Origin: Alphaproteobacteria bacterium
GTDB taxonomy: Bacteria > Pseudomonadota > Alphaproteobacteria > Rhodobacterales > Rhodobacteraceae
Length of the DNA: 48,841 nt
Direction: 5' to 3'
Assembly (NCBI GenBank): GCA_030425145.1
Contig: JAUHVK010000031.1
Location: 1 to 48,841, forward strand
A program made the position numbers and the translations under genes. Below are positions 5,420-42,772 of this stretch, piece after piece; position 1 is the first letter of the stretch; each line of letters begins with the position of its first letter. The notes beneath the pieces are model-generated. The model did no database searches. It had not been told where the DNA came from and saw nothing but the letters and a program-made list of their open reading frames with translations.

Positions 5420-6817
5420 ATGGATGAACGAGGGTCCCATAAACATTCACCAGTAAAAACGGTACCATTGGAGCTGGTGCAAACAATCCTGCGTTCAGCA
5501 GTCAATGGAAGATCTGTCGGGCTTGAAGAGGCAATACAGGTTCTGGACTGCGATGCACATCACGCCAACCGCGTCTTGCGCCAGATGGCCGAGGCTGGGT
5601 ACTTGGAGCCTGCCGACATCCTGGACCGTTTGTTTTATTGGCAGCTCACCCCGAATGGGACACGCCTCGCACTAGAACCCAAGCGAAAGCGTATCGGTCG
5701 CGACAAGGTCCAGACCATCATTTCTGCACTTCTCGCCCGGGCCAAGGTGATCAACGACGATCCCGATCGCTTGCAGCGCATCACCTTGAATCTATTCGGC
5801 AGCGCGCTCGAGGAGCGTGACGACTACGGGGACGTAGATGTTTCGATTGCGTACATGCGGCGTCAGCTAAGCGATGTCGAACGCAAGCGCATCGAAAATG
5901 CACTAAAGGCCCGTCAAAGCAGGTCAGACCGCCAATCCTTTCACGGACGGCTTATGGGAGCGGAACGTCAGGATACGCGCGAGATCATGGCGTTCCTGAA
6001 AAAGGGTCTGCCACATCTTTCGCTCATGAATGATGATCCTATGGACCTCGGGGCACGGTACCGTTGCCTTGTCGACCACGACGTGGAAACGGACAGACCA
6101 GTTGATGTTTCTGACGATATCGTTCGACCCAACGGGCCTTCGATCCTCGACCAACATCCGAGGAAACCGCTGCCGCTAATCACACTGCTTGAAGCACGAC
6201 ACAGAACCATTTCTGCGAGCACCAAAGTTGCGATTGATGACATGCACATAGGTTTGGAGGACGCAGCCATGCTCGAGGAACAAATGTGGTCTCCAAAGGT
6301 CACGCGCGAAGGCGCTTTCGTTGCCAATGACATCAGAAGTGAGAAGCGGGTCAAATTCGCCGGGTTTCAGCACCTATGTCCGATCTGGAAGAAGGACCTC
6401 GGCGGCGTAGCGATGTTGAAGGAAGCCCTCGACTGGTGCGATGAGCATAAGGTTTGGGTCAGGGACCTATTTCCGAGAGTTTCAATCCAACGGTCCGACC
6501 GGACACATATCATACGTCTCGGGTGGGGCCATGACCTGATCTATTTCAATGTCGGTGGTAAATCGACAACTGGGAGCCTGCTGCCTCGAAATCGAACACG
6601 CGTTTCCAAAATTGACTTGGCCGGAGCCTATGCGGTCGGAAGGGCACTTTCGAAGATTTATGATGAAAGTAGGTCCGCGAAAATGCCATGGTTCAGCGCT
6701 GACATTTTGCTTCCGTTAGTCGAGGTAGACAGGCTCCCGGATTTCCCGCGGCTGCATAAAGCTGGCACGTTCAAAGAAGGCGCGTTTCAAGGTCTGCGGG
6801 AGGTCACCTTGTTCTGA
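5420..6817 (+). CDS. Winged-helix protein with nucleotidyltransferase-like motif
   Basis: A 465-aa protein I cannot assign to a named family. Residues about 14-82 look like a winged helix-turn-helix (helix-rich, LEEAIQVLDCDAHHANRVLRQ then GYLEP and a strand YWQLTPNG). Residues 124-143 contain LFGSALEERDDYGDVDVSI, which matches the nucleotidyltransferase signature GS followed about ten residues later by DxD (G127-S128, D138/D140). The remaining 300 residues are unassigned. It starts 30 nt after virB6 with no strong ribosome site and ends convergently with the restriction-like operon. The architecture recalls MNT-type toxin or abortive-infection nucleotidyltransferases, but a role is not shown. 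It may be the first cargo gene inserted after the T4SS operon. Confidence 0.8.
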   Translation: MDERGSHKHSPVKTVPLELVQTILRSAVNGRSVGLEEAIQVLDCDAHHANRVLRQMAEAGYLEPADILDRLFYWQLTPNGTRLALEPKRKRIGRDKVQTIISALLARAKVINDDPDRLQRITLNLFGSALEERDDYGDVDVSIAYMRRQLSDVERKRIENALKARQSRSDRQSFHGRLMGAERQDTREIMAFLKKGLPHLSLMNDDPMDLGARYRCLVDHDVETDRPVDVSDDIVRPNGPSILDQHPRKPLPLITLLEARHRTISASTKVAIDDMHIGLEDAAMLEEQMWSPKVTREGAFVANDIRSEKRVKFAGFQHLCPIWKKDLGGVAMLKEALDWCDEHKVWVRDLFPRVSIQRSDRTHIIRLGWGHDLIYFNVGGKSTTGSLLPRNRTRVSKIDLAGAYAVGRALSKIYDESRSAKMPWFSADILLPLVEVDRLPDFPRLHKAGTFKEGAFQGLREVTLF

Positions 6818-6870: not shown

Positions 6871-8136
6871 CTAGTTTCCCGGCTCCACCTTGACGATCAA
6901 CTGGCGTTGGCTGTCGTATCTGTACTCATGCAACCTGCGTTCTTGAATGAGCTGAACGGCTTCGCTGACATGCTCGGGAAGCACGTAGAACCATTCTCGA
7001 GGATGGACCGCCTTGCCGAACCGGTCCGTGATCACAAGACCCTGCGGCCGTGCCGCATCAAAAAAGCGATGCAAGAGATCCTCGACCTTCATACGCTCCA
7101 GATTATGCAACTCGTAGGTCGCAACAACCTCGACAGGCGCGAGCAGGAAAGTTGGATCGTTCTTCGCATCAGCGATACGCCGCCGGACATCTTGACTGGT
7201 CACACCGACCTTGTGCAGGATCTTTGACACTCCTGCGATTTCCGGGACAGTCGACAGGCTTCGCGCCACATACACTGTGCCGGTGACCGTCATGCTATCC
7301 TGATCCCATTCCGGATCGAGCCGCCCAAACCCAGCCCTTTCGACGATCCGAGCGGTCTTATCTGCTGCGAGCGCTTTGCGAAATGACGACGACAGAGGAT
7401 CGTTCTCCATGCCATTGGAAAAGATGATCCGTAAACGGTGATCCGGCTTACCGCTTCTACGCGAAAGTTCCGTTTTTTCGGCGACATAGACCAGAAGGCC
7501 GCGATGGATGAAGAAGTCGCCTTCGTAGACCGTGATCTCAACATTGTCCTGAACCGGGAGAACTTTTCGATCTCTGGACTCGAGCTTCGACTGCATCTCA
7601 GCAAAGCCGTCTTCGAAGTGTTCGAAATCCGGACACGGGAACATGTCGGCCCGGTGGTCAGGCAACTGGCGTTCTGAGGCTGGCGTCACATTTCGGATGT
7701 TGAGAACCGCGTCATGCACGTCGAGGTCATCATCACCGAAGATATCGTCGAGGCTTGCCGGAACTTCCTCGTCGGCAACTTCTTCGCGCCAATCGGACTC
7801 AGGCACAGCCGGAGACTCCGTTTCGGCAATGGTTGCGGTCGGTGCCACTGGATGGCCATGCCCAAGAAGCCGGTTCCGGTCTGCCTCCATCATCGCGGCC
7901 GTCGGACTGGTCCGGATCGATCGCCAGATCGTCCCGAGTTTCATCTCTTCGAGGTCCAGGCTGTTGTCGTCCGGAATCCGGCCGTTTGACTCGTAAAAAG
8001 CATTCACCTGCGAGACGATCTCGGCATTGCGGGCGTCTGGCGTTGCCGCCGCGCCGCGGTTCCGCTCCTTGATTTCGAGTAGCCCGAACTCATCCGGCTC
8101 GTCGAAGATTTCATCGAGGGATCGGTAGCGCGGCAT
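6871..8136 (-). CDS. GIY-YIG (T5orf172-type) nuclease family protein
   Basis: A 421-aa protein, last in a three-gene minus-strand operon. The N-terminal 200 residues are acidic and low in motifs; residues 205-270 form an uncharacterised beta-rich domain (FFIHRGLLVYVAEKTELSRR). A GIY-YIG-like module follows at about 286-390: GTVYVARS, then KVGVTSQDVRRRI (309-321) with the conserved Arg, and VEDLLHRFF (351-359) with the candidate catalytic Glu352. GIY-YIG domains cut DNA. I chose the ATG at 8136 because it lies 5 nt after the helicase stop and because sequence upstream of it overlaps the helicase in another frame. It is probably the nuclease arm of a restriction-like system with its two neighbours. 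Confidence 0.85.
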   Translation of the reverse strand: MPRYRSLDEIFDEPDEFGLLEIKERNRGAAATPDARNAEIVSQVNAFYESNGRIPDDNSLDLEEMKLGTIWRSIRTSPTAAMMEADRNRLLGHGHPVAPTATIAETESPAVPESDWREEVADEEVPASLDDIFGDDDLDVHDAVLNIRNVTPASERQLPDHRADMFPCPDFEHFEDGFAEMQSKLESRDRKVLPVQDNVEITVYEGDFFIHRGLLVYVAEKTELSRRSGKPDHRLRIIFSNGMENDPLSSSFRKALAADKTARIVERAGFGRLDPEWDQDSMTVTGTVYVARSLSTVPEIAGVSKILHKVGVTSQDVRRRIADAKNDPTFLLAPVEVVATYELHNLERMKVEDLLHRFFDAARPQGLVITDRFGKAVHPREWFYVLPEHVSEAVQLIQERRLHEYRYDSQRQLIVKVEPGN

Positions 8137-8141
8137 GTGGC

Positions 8142-10202
8142 TCAGGTTCCCGACTGAGCCGCTCGCTGGCGTTCGGCCTTTTTCGTCTTGATATATGCAT
8201 GGGCTTCCGCGAGGCGCTTCTCCAATGGATCGGCCGAATGCGGGTTGGGTTCGCGGCCTTCCTGCGCCCGAAACCGCTTGATGCGCGGCCACAACGTGAG
8301 AGCTTCTTTTTCGGTCATCTGGATGCGCTGAGAGATCATCGCGTCCTGGATGGTCTTCAGGAGTGGTGTGTCGAAGGCGCGCGAGGCGACGTCGAAACCT
8401 TCCTTAAACGGGTTTACGCTGTCGATCAGATCGATATCCAACTCGCGGACGTTCACGAACCGCTTCACCATGTTGATCAGGGACAGGTTTTCCGACGGCT
8501 CAGCATCGTACGCCTCGCCCACTTCAGCAAACGCGCCTTCTTGCGATGCGCGTTTCGCCATGCCGATCAGGTTCATCCTCGCCGCGAGGTCCTGACGCAC
8601 GGATTCCGTTTCGTCGTCTGACAGGTTCTCGTAGGTTGTCTCGATGATATCCGTCAGCACCATCTGAGTGGCGACTTCCGGGGCAACATCATCCGCCACA
8701 ACGCGGCGGTCCATGGCCTGGCAGGCCTTGGCCACGAGCTCGTTCATGTCGTTCTCGACAATGGCACGGGCGCGGGCCGTAGGCGGCTCCAACAAACCCT
8801 TGATGCCAATATGTACGGTGCCGTCGTTCGTGGTCTCGACGGGCGCGCGGATATCCCCGTCTTCTCGGCGATAGAATTTGAAGTTGGGCGCCAGCACCTG
8901 CTCCATCAGCATCGCACCCGAAATTGCCTTGAGCATGTCGTTGACCGCGTCGGCGACGACCGTGGTTTCCACACCGGGCTCAGCGACCAGGTTGGTGAAC
9001 TGGGCGTGGGGCTTGCCAGGTGCATCGCGGGTGGCCCGGCCGATGATCTGGACGATTTCCGTAAGCGAATTCCTATAGCCAATGGTCAGCGCATGTTCAC
9101 ACCACGGCCAGTCAAACCCTTCTTTGGCCATCCCGAGCGCGATGATGATATCGACCTTGGCCCGATCCGCCGCGTCGTCCCGCTTTCCATCAGGGCCCTT
9201 CGCCTCTGCCTGCAACGCGGCCTTGATGCCGTCGCGCCCGTCGCCGTCGTCAACGAGGTCGGCGATCTTGAGAACTTTGCCGTCCGAGGCGCGTTTCACC
9301 AAATCGAACCCGGTGTCCGGATCGCGGCTGACGTGCTTACCAATCGCGCCCATGATCAGCCCGACCTCATCGTGCTTTTCGCCGAACGCCTCAGCTGACC
9401 CGCGATGCGGGATGTGGACAATCGTCTTGCGGTTGGTGTCGAGGACATCCGGGATCGCCGAGATGTACCGTCCCCGGTAGAACGAATACGAAATCCCCAG
9501 TGACTTCAGATGCTCGTATCCCTCAAGCTGCTCATAGTAGCTGTAGGTGATGGATTTGAACCGTGCCTCATCCTCGGGCCGCAGGACCGGCACGCTGTCG
9601 CCCCGGAAATAGGACCCGGTCATCGCCATCATGTGGGCTTTCTCGCGGGCCAGCAATTTGCGGAGAATCTCGCCCAGACGGTTGTCATCGGCCGCTGCAA
9701 CGTGATGGAACTCATCGACTGCGATCAGAAAGTCGTCAAACGCCTCCACACCGCGCGCCTTCTCGATCGCGTCGAAGGCAAAGCGGAACGTCGCATGGGT
9801 GCAGACAATTACCTGGGCATCGCTGTCCATGAAGGCTTCGAACGCCTTCACCTTCTGAGACTTCGCCATGCCGTCTTCACCCGATAGGCAAAGGTTCCAT
9901 TGCGGGTCCACGTCCCAATCGGCCCAGAACCCGTGCGAGGTGAGGTCGGTCGAGCGGAACGAGCTGCCGATAGAGGTTTCGGGCACCGCCACGACCACCT
10001 TTTTCACGCCCTGGTTTTCGAGCTTGTCGAGCGCGAGGAACATCAAGGCACGGGATTTTCCCGCCGCCGGTGGCGCCTTCAACAGCAGGAACTGCGCGGC
10101 GCGTGCCTCGTAAACGCGGGCCTGCATCGGGCGCTGGCCGAGGCTGTTCGTCTTGGAGTCCGCGCCGGAATGGCCATAGGTCATACGCACAAGATCAACC
10201 AT
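8142..10202 (-). CDS. Superfamily-2 DEAD/DEAH-type helicase
   Basis: A 686-aa ATP-dependent helicase/translocase of the ResIII class found with restriction enzymes. Motifs: Walker A APPAAGKS (43-50), motif II VDEFHH (162-167, DEFH in place of DEAH), the motif III region MAMTGSYF, and motif VI QIIGRATRD (385-393). A 270-residue C-terminal helical extension without obvious catalytic motifs follows. Its ATG comes directly after the TAA stop of the methyltransferase with no intervening base, and the GIY-YIG gene begins 5 nt after its stop. The three proteins are therefore made from one message. In type I, ISP and DISARM systems such helicases translocate on DNA to bring about cleavage; here that role is inferred. 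Confidence 0.9.
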   Translation of the reverse strand: MVDLVRMTYGHSGADSKTNSLGQRPMQARVYEARAAQFLLLKAPPAAGKSRALMFLALDKLENQGVKKVVVAVPETSIGSSFRSTDLTSHGFWADWDVDPQWNLCLSGEDGMAKSQKVKAFEAFMDSDAQVIVCTHATFRFAFDAIEKARGVEAFDDFLIAVDEFHHVAAADDNRLGEILRKLLAREKAHMMAMTGSYFRGDSVPVLRPEDEARFKSITYSYYEQLEGYEHLKSLGISYSFYRGRYISAIPDVLDTNRKTIVHIPHRGSAEAFGEKHDEVGLIMGAIGKHVSRDPDTGFDLVKRASDGKVLKIADLVDDGDGRDGIKAALQAEAKGPDGKRDDAADRAKVDIIIALGMAKEGFDWPWCEHALTIGYRNSLTEIVQIIGRATRDAPGKPHAQFTNLVAEPGVETTVVADAVNDMLKAISGAMLMEQVLAPNFKFYRREDGDIRAPVETTNDGTVHIGIKGLLEPPTARARAIVENDMNELVAKACQAMDRRVVADDVAPEVATQMVLTDIIETTYENLSDDETESVRQDLAARMNLIGMAKRASQEGAFAEVGEAYDAEPSENLSLINMVKRFVNVRELDIDLIDSVNPFKEGFDVASRAFDTPLLKTIQDAMISQRIQMTEKEALTLWPRIKRFRAQEGREPNPHSADPLEKRLAEAHAYIKTKKAERQRAAQSGT

Positions 10203-12887
10203 TTACGCGGCCTCTTCCTTCTTCAGCTTCTCGATCCGGGCAGCATAGAGCTTGAACAGCCGCTCGAGCCTTTCAGTATCGTTGCGGAACGGACGCCCGA
10301 TATACATCGTCTCGAGCAATTCGCCATTCTGGCGGTGCACCTCGCGCAGGTCGTCTGGCATCTCGTCGGGGTCGTACAGCTGCGCGATGGTCTTGGGGTG
10401 GTGCATGTAGCGCGTCTTGAGGATTGCGCGTGCGGACGCGTTCAGTGCTTCCAGCTGATCCTCGGTGAAGCGCGGTACCGGGAAGGTGTTCCAGCCAAGC
10501 GTGTTGGAATAGCGGAAATCCGATTTGAGCTTGCCGCAGACCGTACCGATCCAGACCAGATGAAGACGCGAGGCGATGAGGGCGAGGCACCATTCAGGTG
10601 CGTCATAGAGGGCAAAGTTCAGGTTTGACGGGACTACATCGTTGCCAACCCGCTCGACGGGCAGGTAGGGACGCCGTTCGGAAGTGACACCCGGAACCAG
10701 AATTGCCGAGTTTCTTGGGGCATAGTGCTCTCGAAATTGATGAGGGCGTTCTGCCAAGTCTCTACCCGCCTTATCCTTCATGTCGAGGCGCGCGGCGCGA
10801 GTTGCCTCGATCATTTTCCGGACGCCTGCGATTTTCGTTGCTTCTTCGAGTTTCTCATCATCGATCCACAGGCAGTATCTTTCGATCCCTTTTACGACTT
10901 CCTGTGAACCCATGAAGCGACGGACGAATTCGGCAGCTTCTGGATGATGGTCCAAAAGCTGATCTCTTTCAGATGGTTTCATCAAGAGCCTGCCAGCGTC
11001 GTAAGGCATGTTTCCGAATTGCATATCGGGCAGCCCAAACAGTGAAGTGTTTGAGCGCGTGACGACCATATCACTCATATTCAGTAGGTAGGAATTGATG
11101 TGCGAAGAGGGCGTCTTCAGATCGCCATCAAAGAGAACTTTCGGCGCATTGGAGCGGTTTCTTATTCCAACGATAACGCACATCACGGCAGCATTGGCCG
11201 ATGCGTTGTTGCGCCATTTGAAAGTGCGGTGCGCAAAACCGATTTCGCGGCCGCCTCCCAGAATCAAAGGCCATATGGTTGAGGCAGCATCCCCTTGCGC
11301 AATCGAGTTTGTTGCCACTAGCGCTGCCTGTGCAGGGCGATCTTCAATATACTGCCCTGCCTTGTAGAACCAGCCGACCACGTAGTCGAACGCCTTGTAG
11401 TTCACCCCCAAATCACCAAAGAGAAGATCCTTGTCGGCCTTATGTGACGCCTCTTGTTGCGCTTTGCCCAAGAACGGTGGATTGCCAGCGATGAAGACCT
11501 CTTCGTCGTCGCTTGGGGGTGGGCAAACGCGGTTCCAGTCTAACCTCAGTGAGTTTTCGCAAACGATGTTTCCGCCATCTCGCAGGGGTAGTGCCGGGGC
11601 TGTGTTTCCGAACATCTCGCCAAAGCGCGCATTGGCCTGATACTCGGCGATGAACAGTGCCAGCTTGGCCGTCTCCGCCGCGAAATCCGTGATCTCGATG
11701 CCGTAGAAATTCGCCAGCCGCACGCCAGAGAACATCTGCGCCGATGCCCCGCCATCCAGCTGCGCCAGACGCTCCAGCACGCGCATCTCGCGCGCACGAA
11801 GCTCCCGATAGGCGACGACAAGGAAGTTCCCCGATCCGCAGGCTGGATCGAAAACCCGGATCCCCTCGATCCGTTTGAGCACGCGCGCCAGTGCCTTGCG
11901 GCTATCACCGGCCTTCTCGATTTGCTCATCCAGATCATCAAGGAACAGCGGCCCCAGCACCTTGAGTATGTTCGGCACCGAGGTGTAGTGCATCCCCAGT
12001 TCGGACCGTTTGTCAGGATCAGCGACCGACTGGATCATGGACCCGAAGATGTCCGGGTTGATCTCTTGCCAATCGAGCTGGCAGGCGTCCTGAAGGTAGC
12101 GATAGGCACCGCGATCGAATTTGGGCACATCCAGTTCATCAGCGAAAAGCCCGCCGTTCACGTAGGGAAAGGCGTCAGCCCAAGCGGGCAGGTTCTGACG
12201 CTGACCCTTGGGGAGATTCATCGCGGCGAAGGCCGATGCGATGCAGGACTGCGCCTCTTCCCCTTTGTCGCCCGCATGGGTGAAGATGAGACGTGAGAAC
12301 AGGTTGTCTTCGAAGATGCCCACGTCTTCTGCGAACATGCAGAAAATCAGCCGCGTCATCAGCTGGTTCAGGTCATGCCGCCGTTCCGGTGTCTTCCAGT
12401 CCGGGTTCTTCTTGAGAAGCGCATCATAGAGCTTGGCCAGTCGCCCCGCCGCCTTGACGTCGACCTCGTTCTCTTCCGCCGCCTTGTAACGGGACATGCC
12501 AGCCGCTGGCAGGAAAAACCCGAAGTGATGATGCAAGTCGGCGAACTTGATGTGCAAGCTGTCGCCCGATGCGACATGTTCGGCGGACAGGTCAACGCCG
12601 TCCGTTGCCAGAAGGATTGCCGGTTTGTGGGTGGTAGTCTTCTTGTCCGACCGGATCATCGACAAGCCCTGGTCCAACGCGCCCGGGTCGGTCACCATTG
12701 CATAGAACTTGCGGTTCATCAGGACCGCGCCGGGCACCTTCGATTTGTTGATCGTCCCACTGCGGAGCTTTGAAACCGTGGCTTGCGGACTACCCATGGC
12801 GGCGGCGAACACAAACGGGAACTCGCCGCCGTCGAACGGACAGCTTGCGATTTCTTCCAGGGCGTCTGCGATTTCTGTCGGGTTCAT
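10203..12887 (-). CDS. MmeI-like class I SAM-dependent DNA adenine methyltransferase
   Basis: An 894-aa N6-adenine DNA methyltransferase. The N-terminal 130 residues (FPFVFAAAMGSP, VPGAVLMNR, HHHFGFFLPAAG) form a methylase-associated domain seen in this family and lack the D/ExK nuclease pattern of true MmeI enzymes. Then come a helical region with GMHYT (299-302), SAM-binding motif I FDPACGSGNF (346-355), the catalytic motif GNPPF (468-472) and a target-recognition/C-terminal part. The start codon ATG at 12887 follows a TAA in the upstream region; no strong ribosome site is obvious. It is the first gene of the operon with helicase and GIY-YIG nuclease. It probably marks host DNA so that the partner proteins act only on unmodified DNA. 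Confidence 0.92.
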   Translation of the reverse strand: MNPTEIADALEEIASCPFDGGEFPFVFAAAMGSPQATVSKLRSGTINKSKVPGAVLMNRKFYAMVTDPGALDQGLSMIRSDKKTTTHKPAILLATDGVDLSAEHVASGDSLHIKFADLHHHFGFFLPAAGMSRYKAAEENEVDVKAAGRLAKLYDALLKKNPDWKTPERRHDLNQLMTRLIFCMFAEDVGIFEDNLFSRLIFTHAGDKGEEAQSCIASAFAAMNLPKGQRQNLPAWADAFPYVNGGLFADELDVPKFDRGAYRYLQDACQLDWQEINPDIFGSMIQSVADPDKRSELGMHYTSVPNILKVLGPLFLDDLDEQIEKAGDSRKALARVLKRIEGIRVFDPACGSGNFLVVAYRELRAREMRVLERLAQLDGGASAQMFSGVRLANFYGIEITDFAAETAKLALFIAEYQANARFGEMFGNTAPALPLRDGGNIVCENSLRLDWNRVCPPPSDDEEVFIAGNPPFLGKAQQEASHKADKDLLFGDLGVNYKAFDYVVGWFYKAGQYIEDRPAQAALVATNSIAQGDAASTIWPLILGGGREIGFAHRTFKWRNNASANAAVMCVIVGIRNRSNAPKVLFDGDLKTPSSHINSYLLNMSDMVVTRSNTSLFGLPDMQFGNMPYDAGRLLMKPSERDQLLDHHPEAAEFVRRFMGSQEVVKGIERYCLWIDDEKLEEATKIAGVRKMIEATRAARLDMKDKAGRDLAERPHQFREHYAPRNSAILVPGVTSERRPYLPVERVGNDVVPSNLNFALYDAPEWCLALIASRLHLVWIGTVCGKLKSDFRYSNTLGWNTFPVPRFTEDQLEALNASARAILKTRYMHHPKTIAQLYDPDEMPDDLREVHRQNGELLETMYIGRPFRNDTERLERLFKLYAARIEKLKKEEAA

Positions 12888-13156: not shown

Positions 13157-14074
13157 ATGACATCAATCAGCACAGCCCCTGCCACTGCCGATGCCCACAA
13201 GTACGGTGTGCTCTTCGTATTTGCGGCGGGTGTGCTGTGGTCGACGGTCGGCCTTGGAATTCGCCTGATCGAAGACGCCGTCGTGTGGCAGATACTGCTC
13301 TACCGGTCGATCAGCCTGTCGCTGTTTCTCTACGTGCTTATCCGCGTGCGGTCTGGCGAAAGCCCATTTGTTCAAGTCCGCCGCATCGGCGCCCCCGCCG
13401 TAATTGCGGGGCTCTCTCTGGTCGCGGCCTATTCCGGCGGCATCTACGCGATCCAGAACACCTCGGTCGCGAATGCCATGCTACTATTTGCGACCGCACC
13501 GTTTATGGCCGCTGTGCTTGGATGGATCGTGCTACGAGAACCTGTCCGCGCCGCAACCTGGATAGCGATTGCCGTCGCAATCAGCGGGATCGGGATCATG
13601 GTCGCCGACAAGTCCGGAGGCGTTGTGCTCAAAGGCAGCCTTGCGGCGCTTGGATCGGCCTTCGGTTTTGCTGTCTTCACCGTGGCGTTGCGGTGGGGGC
13701 GCACAGGCGAAATGCTGCCTGCGGTTTTCCTGTCGGGCCTCTTCGCGATCGTCATCACTTCGGTCATATGCTTGGGCCTCGGGCTTTCCTTCGTGCTAAG
13801 CCCTCGTGATGGCGGCATCGCGATGGGCATGGGGGTGTTCCAGGTTGGGGCAGGTCTGATCCTCTACACGTTGGGATCGCGCAGCCTTCCCGCAGCAGAG
13901 CTTGCCCTGTTGTCGCTTGCCGAAGTCCTGCTCGGTCCACTCTGGGTCTGGATGTTTCTGGGAGAAACCGCGACTGCGAACACACTGATCGGAGGTGCTG
14001 TTCTACTCGTGGCGATTGCTGGCAATGCGCTTTCGGGCAAGCGGAGAAAACCACCGCCAATCACGGCACCTTAG
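13157..14074 (+). CDS. EamA/DMT-family metabolite exporter
   Basis: A 305-aa inner-membrane protein with ten predicted transmembrane helices arranged as two EamA repeats (each about 130 residues; conserved GVLWSTVGLGIRL at the start of the first, GSAFGFAVFTVALRW in the second, and the terminal WMFLGETATANTLIGGAVLL). Members of the drug/metabolite transporter superfamily export amino acids and other small molecules; the substrate cannot be read from the sequence. It stands alone between two defence operons, divergent from the methyltransferase gene with a 269-bp spacer, and shows no link to them. Confidence 0.92.
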   Translation: MTSISTAPATADAHKYGVLFVFAAGVLWSTVGLGIRLIEDAVVWQILLYRSISLSLFLYVLIRVRSGESPFVQVRRIGAPAVIAGLSLVAAYSGGIYAIQNTSVANAMLLFATAPFMAAVLGWIVLREPVRAATWIAIAVAISGIGIMVADKSGGVVLKGSLAALGSAFGFAVFTVALRWGRTGEMLPAVFLSGLFAIVITSVICLGLGLSFVLSPRDGGIAMGMGVFQVGAGLILYTLGSRSLPAAELALLSLAEVLLGPLWVWMFLGETATANTLIGGAVLLVAIAGNALSGKRRKPPPITAP

Positions 14075-14430: not shown

Positions 14431-16365
14431 ATGAAGCTCACGCATTTGCGTATTTGCAACTTCCGATGCTTTGGGGGCGTCGAGACAGAAATCGCGTTAG
14501 ACGATACAACGTTCATTCTTGGACCGAACGGCGCCGGTAAGACGGCGGTGCTGCAGGCGCTGGCAAGGATGTTCAGTCTCGATCCCGCACAGCGTAAGAT
14601 CAGAACCTCCGATTTTCATATCCCCGCCGACGAGGCGCACGATGCGGCACCAGAAGAGCGCAGTTTTTGGATCGAGGCCGATTTCGAATTTCCAGAGCTT
14701 GAGTTGGAAAACGTCGACATGCCCGCGGTGCCCGGCAACTTCGCGCATATGCTCATGGTGGACAATGATGAGGTCGTCCGCGTCCGCTTCCGTTTGGCAG
14801 CAACTCTTGATCAGGACGGTGATATCGAGGAAACCTTCACCTACGTTACCGAAGCTGACGAGGACGGGTTGCCCGTGGAGGAAAGCCGGGCCTCCAAGCA
14901 AGATCGCAACGCCATTCAGGTGCATTACCTCCCTGCTCGCCGCGATCCATCGGACCATATCTCTTACTCCGCCAACGCCTTAGTGGGCCGGGCATTGCGA
15001 GCCGCCGACTGGAGCGTCGAGCGCACTGAGGTCAATGATCTTACAGCGCAAATTACCGATGCCTTAAGTGGGAACGCCGCCATTGAAGGCATCAGCGACT
15101 CGCTGACCGACATCTGGGGCCAGCTTCACAGGGGCGAGTTTTTCGCCAACCCGTCAATCTCTTTTGCGCAAAGTGAGGTCAACGCGCTTCTCCGCCATCT
15201 GAGCCTTACCTTCACGCCAGGCCACGGCGAGTCGCTCGTCGACTTTTCACGACTAAGCGACGGTCAGCAATCCTTGCTGTATATCTCTCTGGTGCTCGCA
15301 ATGCGCGAGATCGGCGACAAGGTGCTCGCCGGTGAACTAGAAGCTTTCGACATCGACAAACTGCGGCCCGCGATCTTTACCTTAATCGCGGTCGAAGAGC
15401 CGGAGAACAGCCTTTCACCGCACTATCTCGGGCGCGTAATCCGCGCGATTTCCGAATTTGCAAACGGCCAGAATGCACAGACCCTGGTGGCTACGCACGC
15501 CCCATCACTTTTGCGTCGCGTCGCCCCTGAGACTATCCGCTATCTGCGGTTAGACGGCGATCGTCGAACGGTCGTCGCTCGGGTTGTTCTCCCGGAAAAT
15601 GAGGACGCGGCAAAATATGTGCGTGAAGCTGTACACGCCTTCCCTGAATTATACTTTGCCCGGTTCGTCATTCTGGGTGAAGGCGACAGCGAAGAAGTCG
15701 TCCTGCCGCGGATGCTAGCTGCACGCGGCGTTCTCACGGATGATGCATCGATCTCGGTTGTCCCTTTGGGCGGGCGCCACGTCAACCATTTCTGGCGGTT
15801 ACTGCACGGGCTGGGCATCCCGCACGCGACTTTGCTTGATCTCGACCTTGCCCGCTTTCAGGGTGGCTGGGGCAGGATCAAGTACGCTGCGAAGCAACTT
15901 CTGAAATATAGCGACGTGGAGAATGCGGGCATTGACGAAGATGAAATAGCAGCCATCCCAACTTGGAATAGCGAACAAGGACTTTTGATCGATGACGATG
16001 ATTGGTTCGAGTATTTCAACGAGCGCGGCGTCTTCTTTTCGTCGCCGCTTGATCTCGACTTTATGATGATCGAGGCGTTCGCCGAAGTCTATCGAGTTGA
16101 AGATGACGAGCGCGAAGAACCAGATGAGACAACGCTCAAGGCTGTCCTCGGCAAAAAACACGATACCGTGGCAGGGCAATATACAGACGACCAGCTTCAG
16201 CTGTTCGATGCCTACCACGGTCGCTTCAAGTTAGGCAGCAAGCCAGCTTGGCATATCCGGGCAATGGCAGCGATTGATGATGCAGAAATTGCTGCGGACA
16301 TGCCCGCGGCCATGACCGCGCTAATCGACTATGTCGAAACCGAGCTCGAAGGCTTACCTGAATGA
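14431..16365 (+). CDS. gajA: OLD-family ATPase/TOPRIM nuclease, GajA-like
   Basis: A 644-aa class 2 OLD-type nuclease. ABC-like ATPase half: Walker A GPNGAGKT (31-38), signature LSDGQQS (275-281), Walker B with EEPE (322-325) and H-loop THAPS (355-359). TOPRIM half: acidic residue in VILGEGDSEE (Glu417) and the DxD at 470-472 in LLDLDLARF. Class 2 OLD proteins are those encoded next to a UvrD-like helicase. In the characterised Gabija anti-phage system GajA is a nucleotide-sensing DNA nicking enzyme that acts with GajB. The ribosome site GGAGAAGG fixes the start. The gene overlaps the helicase gene by 4 nt. It is longer than the studied Bacillus GajA (about 580 aa), so it is called Gabija-like. 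Confidence 0.88.
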   Translation: MKLTHLRICNFRCFGGVETEIALDDTTFILGPNGAGKTAVLQALARMFSLDPAQRKIRTSDFHIPADEAHDAAPEERSFWIEADFEFPELELENVDMPAVPGNFAHMLMVDNDEVVRVRFRLAATLDQDGDIEETFTYVTEADEDGLPVEESRASKQDRNAIQVHYLPARRDPSDHISYSANALVGRALRAADWSVERTEVNDLTAQITDALSGNAAIEGISDSLTDIWGQLHRGEFFANPSISFAQSEVNALLRHLSLTFTPGHGESLVDFSRLSDGQQSLLYISLVLAMREIGDKVLAGELEAFDIDKLRPAIFTLIAVEEPENSLSPHYLGRVIRAISEFANGQNAQTLVATHAPSLLRRVAPETIRYLRLDGDRRTVVARVVLPENEDAAKYVREAVHAFPELYFARFVILGEGDSEEVVLPRMLAARGVLTDDASISVVPLGGRHVNHFWRLLHGLGIPHATLLDLDLARFQGGWGRIKYAAKQLLKYSDVENAGIDEDEIAAIPTWNSEQGLLIDDDDWFEYFNERGVFFSSPLDLDFMMIEAFAEVYRVEDDEREEPDETTLKAVLGKKHDTVAGQYTDDQLQLFDAYHGRFKLGSKPAWHIRAMAAIDDAEIAADMPAAMTALIDYVETELEGLPE

Positions 16366-18011
16366 TTGCAGTGGAACGATGGTCTCCCGTGGATGGCTTA
16401 ACGCTTGAGCCGAACGCGTTGGCTGCTGCAACAGAGATTGCGCGCAATTTGGCCCTCACCGCGGGTCCCGGCGCTGGCAAGACTGAAATGTTGGCGCAAC
16501 GTGCCGACTTCCTGCTTCGCACTGGAACTTGCCGTTACCCTCGCCGGATCCTCGCCATATCGTTCAAGACTGATGCTAGCCAAAATCTCAAGGCACGCGT
16601 CCGGAAACGCTGTGGACCTGGGCTGGCTGCGCGATTCGATAGCCACACCTTCCATGCCTTCGCTAAACGGATCATTGACCGGTTTCGCCCGGTGCTGAGC
16701 GGACGCGATGCGCTAAACCCTGATTACTCGATTGGCCCGCGCCGTGTGCAGCACCAGTCCATCACGTTCGCCGACATGGTGCCGCTCGCTTGCAAGATTA
16801 TCGAAGACAGCCTAGTCGCCCGAAATGCGGTGCGACAGACCTATAGCCATGTCTTCCTGGATGAATTTCAAGACTGCACGGATGAGCAATATCGCCTGAT
16901 ACTCGCTTGTTTCGGCGACACCCCGACAATCCTGACGGCTGTTGGCGATACCAAGCAAAGCATCATGGGCTGGGCCGGAGCGCTCGAGGGTATCTTCCAT
17001 ACCTTCGCCGATGCTTTCGATGCGCTGCCGCGCAATCTCTATCAGAATTTCCGTTCCGCGCCGGCGCTCCGTCGGATGCAGAATGCGATGGTCAAAGTGA
17101 TGGATCCGCCAGCAGCGCTCGACGATGCCGATATCATTGGCGACGAGGGTGAGATTTGCATTCTTCGATTTGAAGATGACGATGACGAAGCCAGTGGCTT
17201 GGCTGAGCGAATCCGGGACCTGATCGACGATGGCATCGAGCCCTCCGAGATTGCGATCCTAGTCAGCAAACAACAAAGTCTTTATTGTCGGCGTCTCGCG
17301 GCTGCTTTTGAGGCGGAAGAGATTCCGTTTCGGGAAGAAGATACGAAGCAAGACTTGGCGTCGGAGCCGGTCGCCTCCCTACTCATCGATTTTCTTCTGA
17401 TCGCAAGTGGCTCGCGCCAACCCTCCGCTTATCGTCGTTTGCTTGATCTGGTTGTTTTCAACCATGGCTATGACGAGGAACGAGAATATCAGCTGCGATC
17501 ACGCTGGGATCGCTTCGTAAACGAAACCAAGCAGAAGATTGCGGCGCATGAGCTCGATCTTCGGCAGATGGACGATTTGCAAGCTCTCGCCATATCACTG
17601 GTAGACAATGTTGGGCGTGATAGTCTCATCTCTTTATCGCCGGACTATGGGCATGGAGATCGCTTCGATGAGCTCATCGCCCAAACTCTTGAGCATGCGC
17701 ACATGCTGCTGCAGAGCCAAGCGGACTCATCAACAGCTCTAGCCTCATTTTCGGGTGACAGCGCTGTTCGCATTATGTCAGTGCACAAGAGCAAGGGCCT
17801 GGAGTTCGATACGGTAGTCATCCTTGGGGTCGAAAAAGAAACCTTTTGGGGCGAGCCGTCAGCGGAACGCGCAGCTTACTTCGTCGCGATCTCGCGCGCC
17901 AAACAACGGCTTCTGCTGACCACGTGCGGTCAGCGCCAGCGTCCGCAAGGAGCGAAACGCTGGTCCACTAACCGTCATGAGTACGACGAATTTCTTGCCT
18001 ACATACCGTGA
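16362..18011 (+). CDS. gajB: UvrD/Rep-type superfamily-1 helicase, GajB-like
   Basis: A 549-aa SF1A helicase. Motifs: Walker A GPGAGKT (35-41), motif II DEFQD (167-171), motif III GDTKQSIMGWAG (195-206), motif IV near YQNFRS, motif V SVHKSKGLEFD (473-483) and motif VI VAISRAKQRL (508-517). It is shorter than full UvrD (about 720 aa) because the 1B/2B insertions are reduced, as in GajB. It starts inside the stop of the OLD-family gene (ATGA), so the two are translated together. In Gabija the helicase-like partner assembles with GajA tetramers and supports defence. It could act alone in repair, but the pairing makes that unlikely. Confidence 0.88.
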   Translation: MIAVERWSPVDGLTLEPNALAAATEIARNLALTAGPGAGKTEMLAQRADFLLRTGTCRYPRRILAISFKTDASQNLKARVRKRCGPGLAARFDSHTFHAFAKRIIDRFRPVLSGRDALNPDYSIGPRRVQHQSITFADMVPLACKIIEDSLVARNAVRQTYSHVFLDEFQDCTDEQYRLILACFGDTPTILTAVGDTKQSIMGWAGALEGIFHTFADAFDALPRNLYQNFRSAPALRRMQNAMVKVMDPPAALDDADIIGDEGEICILRFEDDDDEASGLAERIRDLIDDGIEPSEIAILVSKQQSLYCRRLAAAFEAEEIPFREEDTKQDLASEPVASLLIDFLLIASGSRQPSAYRRLLDLVVFNHGYDEEREYQLRSRWDRFVNETKQKIAAHELDLRQMDDLQALAISLVDNVGRDSLISLSPDYGHGDRFDELIAQTLEHAHMLLQSQADSSTALASFSGDSAVRIMSVHKSKGLEFDTVVILGVEKETFWGEPSAERAAYFVAISRAKQRLLLTTCGQRQRPQGAKRWSTNRHEYDEFLAYIP

Positions 18012-38449: not shown

Positions 38450-38471
38450 AAAGCCCGCTTTGACTTTTCAG
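38450..38471. repeat. Copy 2 of a short intergenic hairpin repeat
   Basis: This 22-bp copy overlaps the helicase stop codon: on the minus strand the TGA is inside the repeat. It matches copy 3 at 20 of 22 positions. Its AAAGC/GCTTT arms suggest a weak terminator. Confidence 0.6.
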
Positions 38472-41400
38472 GCGGCTTGTTCTGCCGCTCTGGCGGCTTC
38501 CTGCCCCACGATCCGGGCCAGAATGCTTCCCGTGTCGATCCCGTCCCCATGCGGCAGGAACACCCGTAGCTGAAAGGCGATGATCTCCGTGAAACACCCC
38601 ATGGCCTTGAGACCTTCAATCATGCCCCGATCCGCACCGCCCAGCTCGAGACGCATCTCGCCTGCGACCCGGCGACGGGTCAGGGTCAGACCCCGGCCCA
38701 GATCGACAGGTGCGGTGGTGCCTAGGGCGGCGGTCAACATCTCCTGCGGCGTTTGCGGGTTGGAGACGAGGAAGCGGGCGCGCAGCGCGGCCGCACCTTC
38801 CTCGCTCAGCGTGCGCCCGATCATGGCTTTCGCCCCATCGGGCGTGACCCGGTAGATGCGCTCATTGGTGGTCGGAATGTCCTTCCAGATCGGCAGCAGC
38901 AGCCCGGTCAGCAGGTAGAGCTTGGTCGTGGTGGTTTTTGGCAGGGACGCAGCCTCGGCATCCCAAAGCCGTGAGAACTCAGGCTTGCCGATGTCTTCCC
39001 AGGCCGAGGACTCGAACCGCGTCTCCTCCAGGTAGCTCGACCCGTTTGGCCGCACCACCTTGCGCATCAGCGTGACAATGTCCTCGTCATACATCTGCAT
39101 GGGGCGCGCCGAGATGAGCGCCGCGCGGCCCGAGGCGCGATTAACCATCGGCAGCTTGTCGGGATTGCGCGACATGGCCTCTTCGGCGTCAAGGACATGG
39201 ACCGGGTCCGTCACCTCAAGCCCAATGATCCGCGTCACGGCGCCGGATTTCGGGCAGGTCCAGAGATCCTCTGTGGAGACCTGTTCGATCTTTTCGCCAC
39301 GCAGGGTTTCGACGCCGAGATCGAGCGTGCCCGCCGCGCGCGCCCGTTCAGTCTGATCGGCAATCCGGCGCATGAACTCGGCAAAGAGCGCGTTCTGCAT
39401 GTGGATGGGAAGGGCAAGCACCCGGTTGAGAAACCGCTGGATCGGCGGCAGCTCCTCGAGCAGCACCCCGTCCTTGTCGATCAGCCGCAGGGCTGTCCAG
39501 TCGGTGAAGCTCTCGTAGCTCATCGCCTCAGCGCGCCCGGCGGCAAGATCGGCGAAATACCCACGTAGTGCGGCCCGCGCGATCGGGCTTTCGAGATTGT
39601 CCTCCTCGCGGAACATGCCCTGCGATCCGGTCTCGCGCTGACCCTTGGTCAGGGCCCCCAGCTGGTCGAGGCGTTTGGCTATAGTCGAGGTGAAGCGCTT
39701 TTCGCCATGCACATCCGAGGTGCAGACCCGGAAGAAGGGCGCGCTGACCTGGGCAGAGCGATGCGTGCGGCCCAGCCCCTGAATGGCCGCATCCGCGCGC
39801 CAGCCGGGCTCCAGTAGATAGTGCCGCCGCCGTTTCTGGTTCTTCGCCGTTTGCGCCGCGTGATAGGATCGGCCCGTACCGCCTGCATCGGAGAAGATCA
39901 GGATATCCTTTTCGCCGTCCATGAAGGCTTGGGTCTCAGACGAATTGCTGCTGGCGCTGCGCTTCTCGATGAAGAGCTGGCCGTCCTCGGCTTTGATGGG
40001 TCGGATGGACCGCCCCGTGACTTCTGCCACGGCCTCGTCGCCAAAGGCCCAGAGGATCTGATCCAGCGCCGAGGGGATCGGGGCGAGCGTCATCAACTCC
40101 ATCATGGCCGCATCACGCAGGGCGAGCGCCTCGCGCGAGACGACCAGCGCCCCGGTCTCATCCCGCAAAGGCACTGCCACCATATTGCCGTCGATCTCGA
40201 CCAGCTTTTGCGCATGGATCGGGAAGGCCTGTTCGAGGTAGCCCAGAACATAGTCGCGCGGCGTCAAGGCACCCTCGACGAGTTCATCCTCCGGGTCCAT
40301 CGCCTCAAGCCGACGCTTCAGCAGGCTCTCGCCTGTCGAGACAACCTGGATGACGCAAGCATTGCCTGCCGCCAGATCGTCCGCGATGGCGCGGATGATG
40401 GTCGGGGCCTTCATGCCCATCAGCAGATGATTGAAGAAACGCTGCTTCGTGCTCTCGAAGCGGGACTTGGCCGAGGCGCGAGCGGCCGAGGCATTGGTCT
40501 CGCCAGAGGCGTCGTTGACGCCGGTCGCCGTCAGCGCGGCCTCGAGATTGTGGTGGATCGTCCGAAACGCACCCGCATAGGCGTCGTAGATCTCGATCTG
40601 GGCCGGGGTGAGCGCGTGTTCGAGTACGTCATACTCCACGCCATCAAAGCTGAGGGCACGGGCCGTGTAGAGGCCGAGCGTCTTGAGATCGCGCGCGACC
40701 ACCTCCATGGCGGCGACACCGCCTGCTTCCATCGCCGAGACGAAACTCTCGCGGCTCGGGAAGGGGTATTCGGGGCCTTGCCCCCAGAGCCCTAGCCGCG
40801 CGGCATAGGCGAGGTTGTGCACGCTCGTGGCACCCGTGGCCGAGATGTAGAAGACGCGGGCGCGGGGTGCTGCCAGTTGCAGCCGCAGGCCAGCAAGGCC
40901 CTGCTGGGAGGGTTTGATCCCCCTGCCCTCCTCGGACCCTGCCGCGTTCTGCATGGCATGGGCCTCATCGAAGGCAAGAACGCCGTCAAAGTCTTCACCC
41001 ATCCAGGCGAGGATCTGGCTCAGTCGCGTGGTGCCGCATTTGCCCGCGGACCGCAGCGTGGCGTAGGTGACGAAGAGGATTCCGTCGCCCATCGGGACGG
41101 GCTGATCCGGTTTCCATTTGGAAAGCGGCTGAATGTCGGCAGGCGAGCCGCCGAGATCGGTCCAGTCGCGGATCGCGTCCTCGATAAGCGTGGCGGATTT
41201 GGAGACCCAGATCGCCTTCCTGCGCCCGGCCAGCCAGTTGACAAGGATGAGCCCCGCGCATTCGCGCCCCTTGCCGCAACCGGTGCCGTCACCGAGGAAA
41301 TAGCCGAGGCGATAGGCCCGTGCATCCGGGTCATCATCGGCGCGCGTCAGCTTGGTCTGGTCGTCATCGATGGTAAACCGACCGGGCAGATCACGCCCAT

Positions 41401-42730
41401 GGGCGTCATGCGCCATGATGATGGTTTCCAGCTGCGCCTCGGAGAGATCCCCCTCCTCGATCAACCGTGCGGGCAGGCGCAAGTTATCACTGCCCGTGTT
41501 TGAGGGCATGGGCGGGGCAACCGAGGCCATGGCGATGCTTTCAACGAGCGGCGTGGGATGTTCCTGCGCACCCGCGATCTCGATCCGTTGCGGACGGTAG
41601 CGCGCATAGATATCCGAGATCGGCGTGTTATCACGGGGGGCCTCAAAGCTTGTGAAGCTGAGCGGGCGGACGGCATTGGCCTGGGGTTTGGAAGCGGCAA
41701 CAGGCGCAGCCGCGGTCTTGCGCGGGGCAGAGGATGGAACGGTCGGCCGAGCATGAGGGATCGCTTCAACCCGTTGGGCCGGGCGCATCTCGGTCCGTGT
41801 TGCGGCCACGGCATCGACATATGCCAAGGCTTCATTCAGATCCCGCACAGGGACGCGGATCATTTCGCCGTCCTCCTGCACCTTGTCGAAGACCATCAGC
41901 TGGGTTTCGACAGAGGTGCCAAGCTTGCGGTAGACCTGCCCCGGCATCGTCAGCGCCAAGCGCGGCGTCAGGAGACCGCAGGCGCGGGACCAATGCGCGG
42001 CATCGCGTTCGGGCGTGAACCCCGGCGGCATGATCGCCACCAGCCGCCCACCGGGCGCGAGACGCTTGGCAGCCGCGATGAGATGTTTGGCGGCGATGTG
42101 CTTGTCCCGCGACCGATCGACCGAGGAAGCGAAGGGCGGATTCATCACCACGACGTCGGGTAGAACCGGCGTCTGCAGCAGATCATCGATATGCTCCCCG
42201 TCATGGCCTGTCACCTCGCCGCCGAAAACCGCGCGCAGGAGGCGCTGGCGAAAGGGGTCGATCTCGTTGAGCACAAGCGTGGCACCGGCCCGGGCGGCGA
42301 AAGCGGCCAGGGCACCGGTGCCAGCCGAGGGCTCCAGCACGGTCTCGCCCTTGCGGATCGCCGCAGCCCGCAAGACCAGCGCCGCAAATGGCAACGGCGT
42401 GGAGAACTGCTGCAAACGGATTTGCTGCTCCGACCGGCGCGTTTCCGTCAGGAGACGTGACGCAAGGAGTTTTGCGGCAGAGTAATCATCCTCACTGTTG
42501 TCGCCACGTAGCAGCGCCTGCACAGCCGCGGCCTGCATCAGGTCATAGGCCTTCCGCCAGTCCCAGGCGCCCCCGGTATCACTGCCATGAAACGTCTCGC
42601 GCATGATGCGCGCGAGCGCTGAGCTACGCAGGGGTTGGTGGTCGATCTCCGCGCCGATTTGTGCGATGGCATTTGCGAGATCAGTGTCAGAGATTGGGAA
42701 AGCCGGGTTTGCCGGTTTGGGCTTGGACAT
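38468..42730 (-). CDS. Strawberry-notch-like helicase with N-terminal adenine methyltransferase
   Basis: A 1420-aa protein with two enzymatic parts. N-terminal methyltransferase: SAM motif EPSAGTGAL (133-141) and the N6-adenine catalytic NPPF (197-200). Helicase: Walker A GDGTGCGKGR (480-489), DEAH (588-591), then SVHNLAYAAR and the C-terminal helicase domain with FSDAGGTGRSYHAA and GLGRTHRSAQ (motif VI), as in strawberry-notch and SNF2-related proteins. Conjugative plasmids of this group nearly always carry it. Phage P1 DarB has the same methylase-helicase order and protects incoming DNA from type I restriction; a similar role is inferred. The ATG at 42730 is chosen from the start of similarity (MSKPKP); 14 upstream codons are possible. 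Confidence 0.9.
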   Translation of the reverse strand: MSKPKPANPAFPISDTDLANAIAQIGAEIDHQPLRSSALARIMRETFHGSDTGGAWDWRKAYDLMQAAAVQALLRGDNSEDDYSAAKLLASRLLTETRRSEQQIRLQQFSTPLPFAALVLRAAAIRKGETVLEPSAGTGALAAFAARAGATLVLNEIDPFRQRLLRAVFGGEVTGHDGEHIDDLLQTPVLPDVVVMNPPFASSVDRSRDKHIAAKHLIAAAKRLAPGGRLVAIMPPGFTPERDAAHWSRACGLLTPRLALTMPGQVYRKLGTSVETQLMVFDKVQEDGEMIRVPVRDLNEALAYVDAVAATRTEMRPAQRVEAIPHARPTVPSSAPRKTAAAPVAASKPQANAVRPLSFTSFEAPRDNTPISDIYARYRPQRIEIAGAQEHPTPLVESIAMASVAPPMPSNTGSDNLRLPARLIEEGDLSEAQLETIIMAHDAHGRDLPGRFTIDDDQTKLTRADDDPDARAYRLGYFLGDGTGCGKGRECAGLILVNWLAGRRKAIWVSKSATLIEDAIRDWTDLGGSPADIQPLSKWKPDQPVPMGDGILFVTYATLRSAGKCGTTRLSQILAWMGEDFDGVLAFDEAHAMQNAAGSEEGRGIKPSQQGLAGLRLQLAAPRARVFYISATGATSVHNLAYAARLGLWGQGPEYPFPSRESFVSAMEAGGVAAMEVVARDLKTLGLYTARALSFDGVEYDVLEHALTPAQIEIYDAYAGAFRTIHHNLEAALTATGVNDASGETNASAARASAKSRFESTKQRFFNHLLMGMKAPTIIRAIADDLAAGNACVIQVVSTGESLLKRRLEAMDPEDELVEGALTPRDYVLGYLEQAFPIHAQKLVEIDGNMVAVPLRDETGALVVSREALALRDAAMMELMTLAPIPSALDQILWAFGDEAVAEVTGRSIRPIKAEDGQLFIEKRSASSNSSETQAFMDGEKDILIFSDAGGTGRSYHAAQTAKNQKRRRHYLLEPGWRADAAIQGLGRTHRSAQVSAPFFRVCTSDVHGEKRFTSTIAKRLDQLGALTKGQRETGSQGMFREEDNLESPIARAALRGYFADLAAGRAEAMSYESFTDWTALRLIDKDGVLLEELPPIQRFLNRVLALPIHMQNALFAEFMRRIADQTERARAAGTLDLGVETLRGEKIEQVSTEDLWTCPKSGAVTRIIGLEVTDPVHVLDAEEAMSRNPDKLPMVNRASGRAALISARPMQMYDEDIVTLMRKVVRPNGSSYLEETRFESSAWEDIGKPEFSRLWDAEAASLPKTTTTKLYLLTGLLLPIWKDIPTTNERIYRVTPDGAKAMIGRTLSEEGAAALRARFLVSNPQTPQEMLTAALGTTAPVDLGRGLTLTRRRVAGEMRLELGGADRGMIEGLKAMGCFTEIIAFQLRVFLPHGDGIDTGSILARIVGQEAARAAEQAA

Positions 42731-42772
42731 GGGGATTTTCCTTTGGATCAGGGTCTGAATTCCAAAGGACAA

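Follow-up and report, generated by a model that had tools for sequence, protein, structure and literature searches.

In the 48,841-nucleotide contig JAUHVK010000031.1 of a member of the Rhodobacteraceae (the whole stretch, here called the window), an operon of three genes was found that encodes an MmeI-like N6-adenine DNA methyltransferase (MTase), a superfamily 2 (SF2) helicase and a protein of the GIY-YIG nuclease family. This trio is best read as an ATP-dependent restriction-modification system made of three proteins and belonging with DnmA-YeeB-YeeC, a reading to which we give a probability of about 0.64. The reading draws on catalytic motifs retained in all three families, on a near-constant linkage of the genes, on loss of the MTase's own nuclease site where the helicase-nuclease pair is present, and on specificity cassettes that differ beside a near-constant helicase and nuclease; a neighbouring Gabija system among conjugation genes, the phage sensitivity of Vibrio crassostreae mutants and SF2 fold matches also speak for it. 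The preliminary description of the operon had proposed that the GIY-YIG protein cleaves in trans with the helicase as motor, and this remains the best reading, but the novelty that it implied does not stand, as the arrangement is that of the already published DnmA-YeeB-YeeC cluster of Bacillus subtilis.

All three genes are intact and follow the order MTase, helicase, GIY-YIG on the minus strand, with no insert between MTase and helicase and no further gene in the operon. Between the MTase, whose stop codon ends at 10203, and the helicase, whose ATG starts at 10202, the gap is 0 nt; the helicase stop codon, ending at 8142, is separated by 5 nt from the GIY-YIG ATG at 8136. The gene frames agree with the coordinates, order, strand and spacing given previously. 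The features are:

10203..12887, minus strand: MmeI-like N6-adenine DNA methyltransferase, DnmA/YeeA-type, 894 aa, with its own target recognition domain (TRD) (Pfam, MmeI match)
12411..12887, minus strand: degenerate MmeI_N (PD-(D/E)XK) domain, MTase residues 1-159 (PF20464, E 1e-24)
10608..11537, minus strand: putative exchangeable specificity cassette, MTase residues ~451-760, comprising the second half of the MTase domain and most of the TRD
8142..10202, minus strand: SF2 helicase, YeeB-type, 686 aa (Pfam, fold and motif matches)
8184..8315, minus strand: small helical domain at the helicase C-terminus, residues 630-673 (hhalign)
6871..8136, minus strand: GIY-YIG (T5orf172/MUG113) nuclease-family protein, YeeC-type, 421 aa (Pfam, alignment of relatives)
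7909..8040, minus strand: small helical domain at the N-terminus of the GIY-YIG protein, residues 33-76 (hhalign)
7339..7530, minus strand: predicted small beta-barrel, SH3/Tudor/EF-P-domain-I-like, residues ~203-266 of the GIY-YIG protein
6946..7281, minus strand: GIY-YIG domain, residues 286-397 (Pfam, alignment of relatives)

The three proteins and the lost nuclease site

The MTase matched five of the five MmeI Pfam domains, PF20464 (E 1e-24), PF20465 (2e-22), PF20473 (6e-97), PF20466 (2e-79) and PF20467 (2e-14), and the MmeI structure 5hr4 was aligned to its residues 89-885 with an E value of 1e-155. The motifs FDPACGSGNF and GNPPF, which had been reported before, were placed at residues 346-355 and 468-472, and N469 and P470 are retained in 80/80 aligned relatives. 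It had also been claimed that the N-terminal region of MmeI was replaced here by another domain, a possibility ruled out by the MmeI_N match (Pfam, E 1e-24). The catalytic residues of MmeI are D70, E80 and K82 (PMC4833311), and the corresponding columns of the window MTase, with the spacing of MmeI, are occupied by A54, M64 and T66; on alignment, then, the N-terminus of the MTase is the MmeI nuclease domain from which D, E and K have been lost. A copy of PADLOC (2023) labelled the protein a Type IIG restriction enzyme-methyltransferase, despite the lost nuclease site, and recorded similarity to DrmMI and PglX.

The D..E.K motif was found in none of the 80 full-length MTases of trio loci, the D alone being kept in 7 (MTases shorter than 800 aa were excluded from the count). 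For comparison with MTases sampled independently of the helicase, PF20473 was searched in 299 genomes drawn evenly from the phylum, which gave 21 strong places; two were dropped, the MTase of the window itself and L112 (genome G172), which lies at a contig edge, and one split gene of genome G209, represented by weaker pieces, was added, making 20. L001-L004 and L094-L113 were excluded from the counts as duplicates. A helicase-GIY-YIG pair lies downstream on the same strand in 14 of these 20 places, 12 of them inside the fetched stretch. The other two (L126, 10.4 kb fetched, and L131, 16 kb fetched) have motif-less MTases and no helicase in the first stretch, but they were rejected as exceptions when a genome search located a same-strand helicase 7.1 and 7.3 kb downstream, adjoined by the GIY-YIG gene. 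The motif was absent from all 13 scorable pair-bearing places (the MTase of L143, in two frames, was unscored) and present in 6/6 strong MmeI MTase places without the pair (Fisher p 3.7e-5).

Of the six genomes whose motif-bearing MTase lacks the pair, four have no helicase match anywhere, and in G209 and the window's own genome the sole helicase belongs to another MTase than the motif-bearing one. The window's genome thus holds both kinds; its motif-bearing MmeI-family MTase is located at 2593-5487 of L141 (contig C61), and the helicase-nuclease pair is absent from the 12-kb stretch around it. Outside the two-by-two test, distant PF20473 matches without flanks (L114-L123) were long enough to score in 9/10 cases and carried the motif in 8/9, the one without it, L121, being misaligned by eye. 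As far as these sequences tell, MTases accompanied by the helicase-nuclease pair are those that lack an active nuclease site of their own.

The helicase matched DEAD, ResIII and Helicase_C in Pfam; the previously reported APPAAGKS and DEFH start at its residues 43 and 163. DEFH is present in 87/87 relatives and the Walker lysine (K49) in 86/87, the remaining one having a gap there. Fold comparison gave matches to SF2 proteins including the DNA translocases Mfd, FANCM and RadD; HsdR was among the Foldseek matches, at low TM-scores. PADLOC had no strong model for either the helicase or the GIY-YIG protein, the helicase showing only weak PbeA matches.

The only Pfam matches of the GIY-YIG protein above cut-off were T5orf172 and MUG113. 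G286, Y289, K309, G311, R320, E352, H356, E381 and W382 are invariant in 92/92 aligned relatives, and the first six of these correspond to the conserved catalytic positions of GIY-YIG nucleases. A sequence search of the PDB with this protein gave 0 matches, and those obtained by Foldseek and VIA-align cover mainly residues ~181-270, a small barrel; the region that the preliminary description had left unassigned is weakly predicted to be an SH3/Tudor-like barrel.

Comparison of the helicase C-terminus with the nuclease N-terminus by hhalign gave a probability of 96.1 (E 3e-9), against no more than 1.6 for ten control segments, and by this profile comparison the two proteins have a homologous small helical domain in common. 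The nuclease-type copy is a gene of its own in L006; in L047 and L054 the domain is in a separate frame, where a frameshift is possible. The GIY-YIG protein contains two copies of a short acidic motif, SLD(E/D)IF with acidic residues after it, at residues 6-15 (8092-8121) and 128-137 (7726-7755); its copies flank the small helical domain and are also visible in the family consensus.

Linkage of the genes and exchange of the cassette

The helicase profile alone was run over 84,980 species genomes and detected at least 558 relatives, of which the best-scoring 80 were kept, a sample therefore tilted to close relatives. In 79/80 of these loci a GIY-YIG gene is directly downstream on the same strand, separated from the helicase frame by no more than 16 nt; the lone exception is L032, whose contig stops 40 nt after the helicase. 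An MTase, or a part of one cut by the contig end, is upstream on the same strand in 70/80, and the other 10 loci have ~78-2389 bases of contig ahead of the helicase frame, one of them (L078) with an MTase downstream. The preliminary description had held that rarity of the three families together would speak against a system; this neighbourhood census found them linked in nearly all loci examined.

Record titles assign the loci to Pseudomonadota, Bacillota, Bacteroidota, Planctomycetes, Chlamydiae and one methanogen (bin), with several metagenome bins among them. The trio is present in a contig of Bacillus mediterraneensis (L034, helicase identity 50%), and the same order occurs in chromosome-sized contigs. 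Among plasmids the helicase was matched in 262/72,556 records (with coverage of at least 80% of the helicase in 153; 117 records were typed conjugative). Its occurrence is sporadic in close relatives of the host (4/61 genomes, including the window's own), and a near-identity search with one copy found it in 3/5,426 genomes of an E. coli collection, too few for cassette comparison.

Near-identical operons, compared where both MTases were at least 800 aa, differ in one stretch. Between the window and L011 (same genus), L014 (a Ruegeria contig) and L015 (a metagenome contig), identity is 96-98% for the helicase, 94-97% for the GIY-YIG protein and 96-98% for MTase residues 1-450 and 761-885, but only 49-53% for residues 451-760. 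At the DNA level the match between the window and L011 stops inside the MTase gene and resumes 836 bases on, the flanking pieces being 91.5 and 89.7% identical. One cassette is common to L014 and L015, and the window and L011 carry two others. The same kind of difference was seen in L127/L008, L023/L005, L020/L021 and L058/L039, which makes five groups of near-identical operons in all. At helicase identities of at least 90% the cassettes differ in 9/10 pairs (45-53% identity at residues 451-760, 80-99% in the flanking MTase parts), L014/L015 being the pair with the same one; below 90%, the cassette is kept in L026/L027 (helicase 89%) but not in L030/L031, L076/L130 and L076/L013 (85-87%).

The abrupt change of identity at both cassette edges, the left one close to GNPPF, fits recombination, and the cassette would be the part that sets the target site because it overlaps the MmeI TRD. 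Since the helicase and nuclease barely vary with the cassette, they are unlikely to carry a matching site recognition of their own and seem, from these comparisons, to take their target from the MTase. Such constancy argues against an ordinary Type II pair and for a Type I-like division of labour.

The junction between MTase and helicase often houses other defence-type genes. Of the 70 helicase-seeded loci that have an MTase upstream, 24 show a gap of at least 300 nt between the two frames, and 20 inserted frames from the helicase-seeded and MTase-seeded loci were scanned. Matches were obtained to PDDEXK_4, AlbA_2 with HATPase_c_4 (RecG C-terminal), AAA_15, KAP NTPase, Abi_C, reverse transcriptase, RhuM, KilA-N, BRO-N and DUF1828, together with weak ones below cut-off to HEPN/Abi_2 and HTH_11, while 5/20 frames had no match. 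Loci with defence-type inserts include L126/L149, L013, L039, L049, L077 and L062.

Proposed mechanism and alternative explanations

In the mechanism proposed here, the MTase would recognise a probably asymmetric site, methylate one adenine and act as the sole sequence-specific subunit. On an unmethylated site it would recruit the SF2 helicase, perhaps via the inactive nuclease domain; the helicase would then move along the DNA and the GIY-YIG protein would cut it, the three presumably forming a complex directed at phage or plasmid DNA. Methylation by the MmeI family and DnmA is of one strand only (PMC7261158), so that after replication one daughter site is unmarked, and in Types III and ISP the host is protected by the requirement that two sites stand opposed (PMC5737866). 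Given the one-strand marking, cutting would, by analogy with these types, probably require two opposed complexes.

We consider it an even bet that the operon is, beyond this, a plug-in restriction machine, in which an MTase whose nuclease domain is dead acts as an interchangeable guide for a constant motor-nuclease pair linked by the duplicated small domain, one recombination inside the MTase gene would re-aim self-marking and cutting together, and the MTase-helicase junction gathers defence genes. The cluster is widespread, and its published model in B. subtilis looked inactive; from the cassette differences it can be argued that relatives are active and that the MTase alone chooses the target. 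Should restriction follow the cassette, the system would be a Type I-like enzyme whose aim is changed by exchanging one stretch.

Several points weigh against a restriction system. In B. subtilis, deletion of dnmA left plasmid transformation unchanged (PMC7261158), deletion of yeeB or yeeC left the plaquing of three phages unchanged, phage genomes show no avoidance of the DnmA site, and the cluster is termed a non-functional relic by the authors (PMC9973331); no cleavage assay for the cluster was seen in the literature consulted. Besides the tilt of the census to close relatives, 8 of the 10 MTase-less loci have more than 1 kb upstream, which would have revealed an adjacent MTase end, and so hold something else there or lack an MTase. 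RNA helicases tie with DNA translocases in the fold comparison, so the helicase fold does not demonstrate DNA translocation, and no solved GIY-YIG enzyme was among the 50 structure matches listed by Foldseek or by VIA-align. A lone GIY-YIG gene (94% DNA identity to an Aeromonas copy) was found at 7065-8231 of L145, from a Klebsiella plasmid; in this 15-kb stretch neither an MTase nor a helicase was matched within 7 kb of it. Other Klebsiella plasmids gave similar GIY-YIG matches or 3' fragments.

The negative B. subtilis tests, the effects of N6-methyladenine on gene expression (PMC7261158, PMC9973331) and the partial copies, lone gene and 3' fragments on Klebsiella plasmids would all suit a relic or domesticated system in which the MTase alone still works, as an epigenetic regulator, as was proposed for DnmA. 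We think this unlikely, as the catalytic motifs of helicase and nuclease are nearly or wholly invariant across phyla, and cassettes differ between otherwise near-identical operons, as expected under pressure to change targets.

Methylation might instead mark self as in BREX or DISARM, with the helicase and nuclease acting on replication or recombination intermediates of the invader and the GIY-YIG protein nicking branched DNA, no cutting following from site recognition and translocation. The GIY-YIG proteins SLX1 and ANKLE1 cut branched DNA, according to abstracts, and the weakly predicted SH3/Tudor-like barrel and the lack of avoidance of the DnmA motif by phages (PMC9973331) would accord with such a role. 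Apart from the MTase similarity to DrmMI and PglX, however, the three proteins match no BREX or DISARM component among the PADLOC matches listed, those for the six window proteins scanned containing no PglZ, DrmA or DrmB, and the constancy of nuclease and helicase where cassettes have changed speaks rather for a complex directed to sites; we hold this alternative to be rather improbable. That the genes merely travel together, the MTase for self-protection against another enzyme and the helicase and GIY-YIG protein for plasmid upkeep, appears very improbable: the family is common on plasmids (262 records, 117 typed conjugative) and the GIY-YIG gene can occur alone, but the order is fixed in nearly all loci examined, chromosome-sized contigs included, and unlinked functions would not be expected to give the match between a missing MTase active site and the presence of the pair.

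Genomic surroundings and comparison with known systems

The operon shares its locus with another defence system, Gabija, amid conjugation genes (TrbI, T2SSE-family ATPase, TrbL, T4SS coupling protein, relaxase) to the left and further right:

13157-14074: EamA transporter, right of the operon
14431-16365, opposite strand to the operon: GajA (PADLOC, E 6e-267)
16362-18011, opposite strand to the operon: GajB (PADLOC, E 3e-215)

Convergent with the operon is a gene for a 465-aa protein (5420-6817, plus strand) with no match in Pfam, PADLOC or NCBIfam; by eye, it seems to begin with a winged helix and to contain a GS...DVD stretch like that of nucleotidyltransferases. A 1434-aa protein (38468-42772, minus strand) matched AAA_34 and the Strawberry-notch-type Helicase_C_4.

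In the literature, synteny is conserved among DnmA-YeeB-YeeC homologues (PMC7261158, PMC9973331), a Type I-like nature was proposed for the cluster (Morgan 2009, as cited in PMC7261158/PMC9973331), and YeeB and YeeC homologues were placed in defence islands (Makarova 2011, as cited in PMC9973331). For V. crassostreae, deletion of the dnmA and yeeB homologues is reported to have raised sensitivity to some phages (Piel 2021, as told in PMC9973331); B. subtilis YeeB and YeeC are reported to miss C-terminal stretches found in V. crassostreae (PMC9973331/PMC7261158). Cassette exchange, the shared small domain and the cargo slot were not found in the available portions of PMC7261158 and PMC9973331 or in the literature searched, which leaves subscription papers mostly outside. 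A text search of a BREX survey (PMC12839542) for five terms gave no hit. An S. thermophilus survey (PMC11514479) contains no GIY-YIG, PMC10952713 names it once, in a table, for other systems, and PMC10853773 concerns Dnd/Pbe systems; PMC8432527 describes a different system.

The closest known arrangement is that of B. subtilis, where DnmA (YeeA), an MmeI homologue without endonuclease motif that methylates GACGAG, is followed by YeeB, a helicase, and YeeC, a T5orf172/GIY-YIG protein (PMC7261158, PMC9973331). Likened by family and published description, the window has the same three families in the same order, with a motif-less MTase, the helicase as first gene downstream and the T5orf172/GIY-YIG gene as second; it differs in that its copy lies in a defence island of a conjugative element. 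With Type IIL MmeI it shares all five MmeI domains including the TRD, but the D..E.K nuclease site is missing and a helicase and separate nuclease are added. CglI and NgoAVII likewise have a nuclease protein separate from an SF2 helicase-like ATPase (PMC5737866); their PLD nuclease, however, has a B3-like DNA-binding domain of its own, neither of which was met by Pfam in the window GIY-YIG protein, and recognition in the window seems to follow the MTase. As in Type I systems (EcoR124I HsdR/HsdM/HsdS), the target appears to be set on the MTase side, with an SF2 motor and a nuclease apart from recognition, whereas the window has no HsdS, its TRD being inside the MTase, and its motor and nuclease are two proteins instead of a fused HsdR, the nuclease being of the GIY-YIG family.

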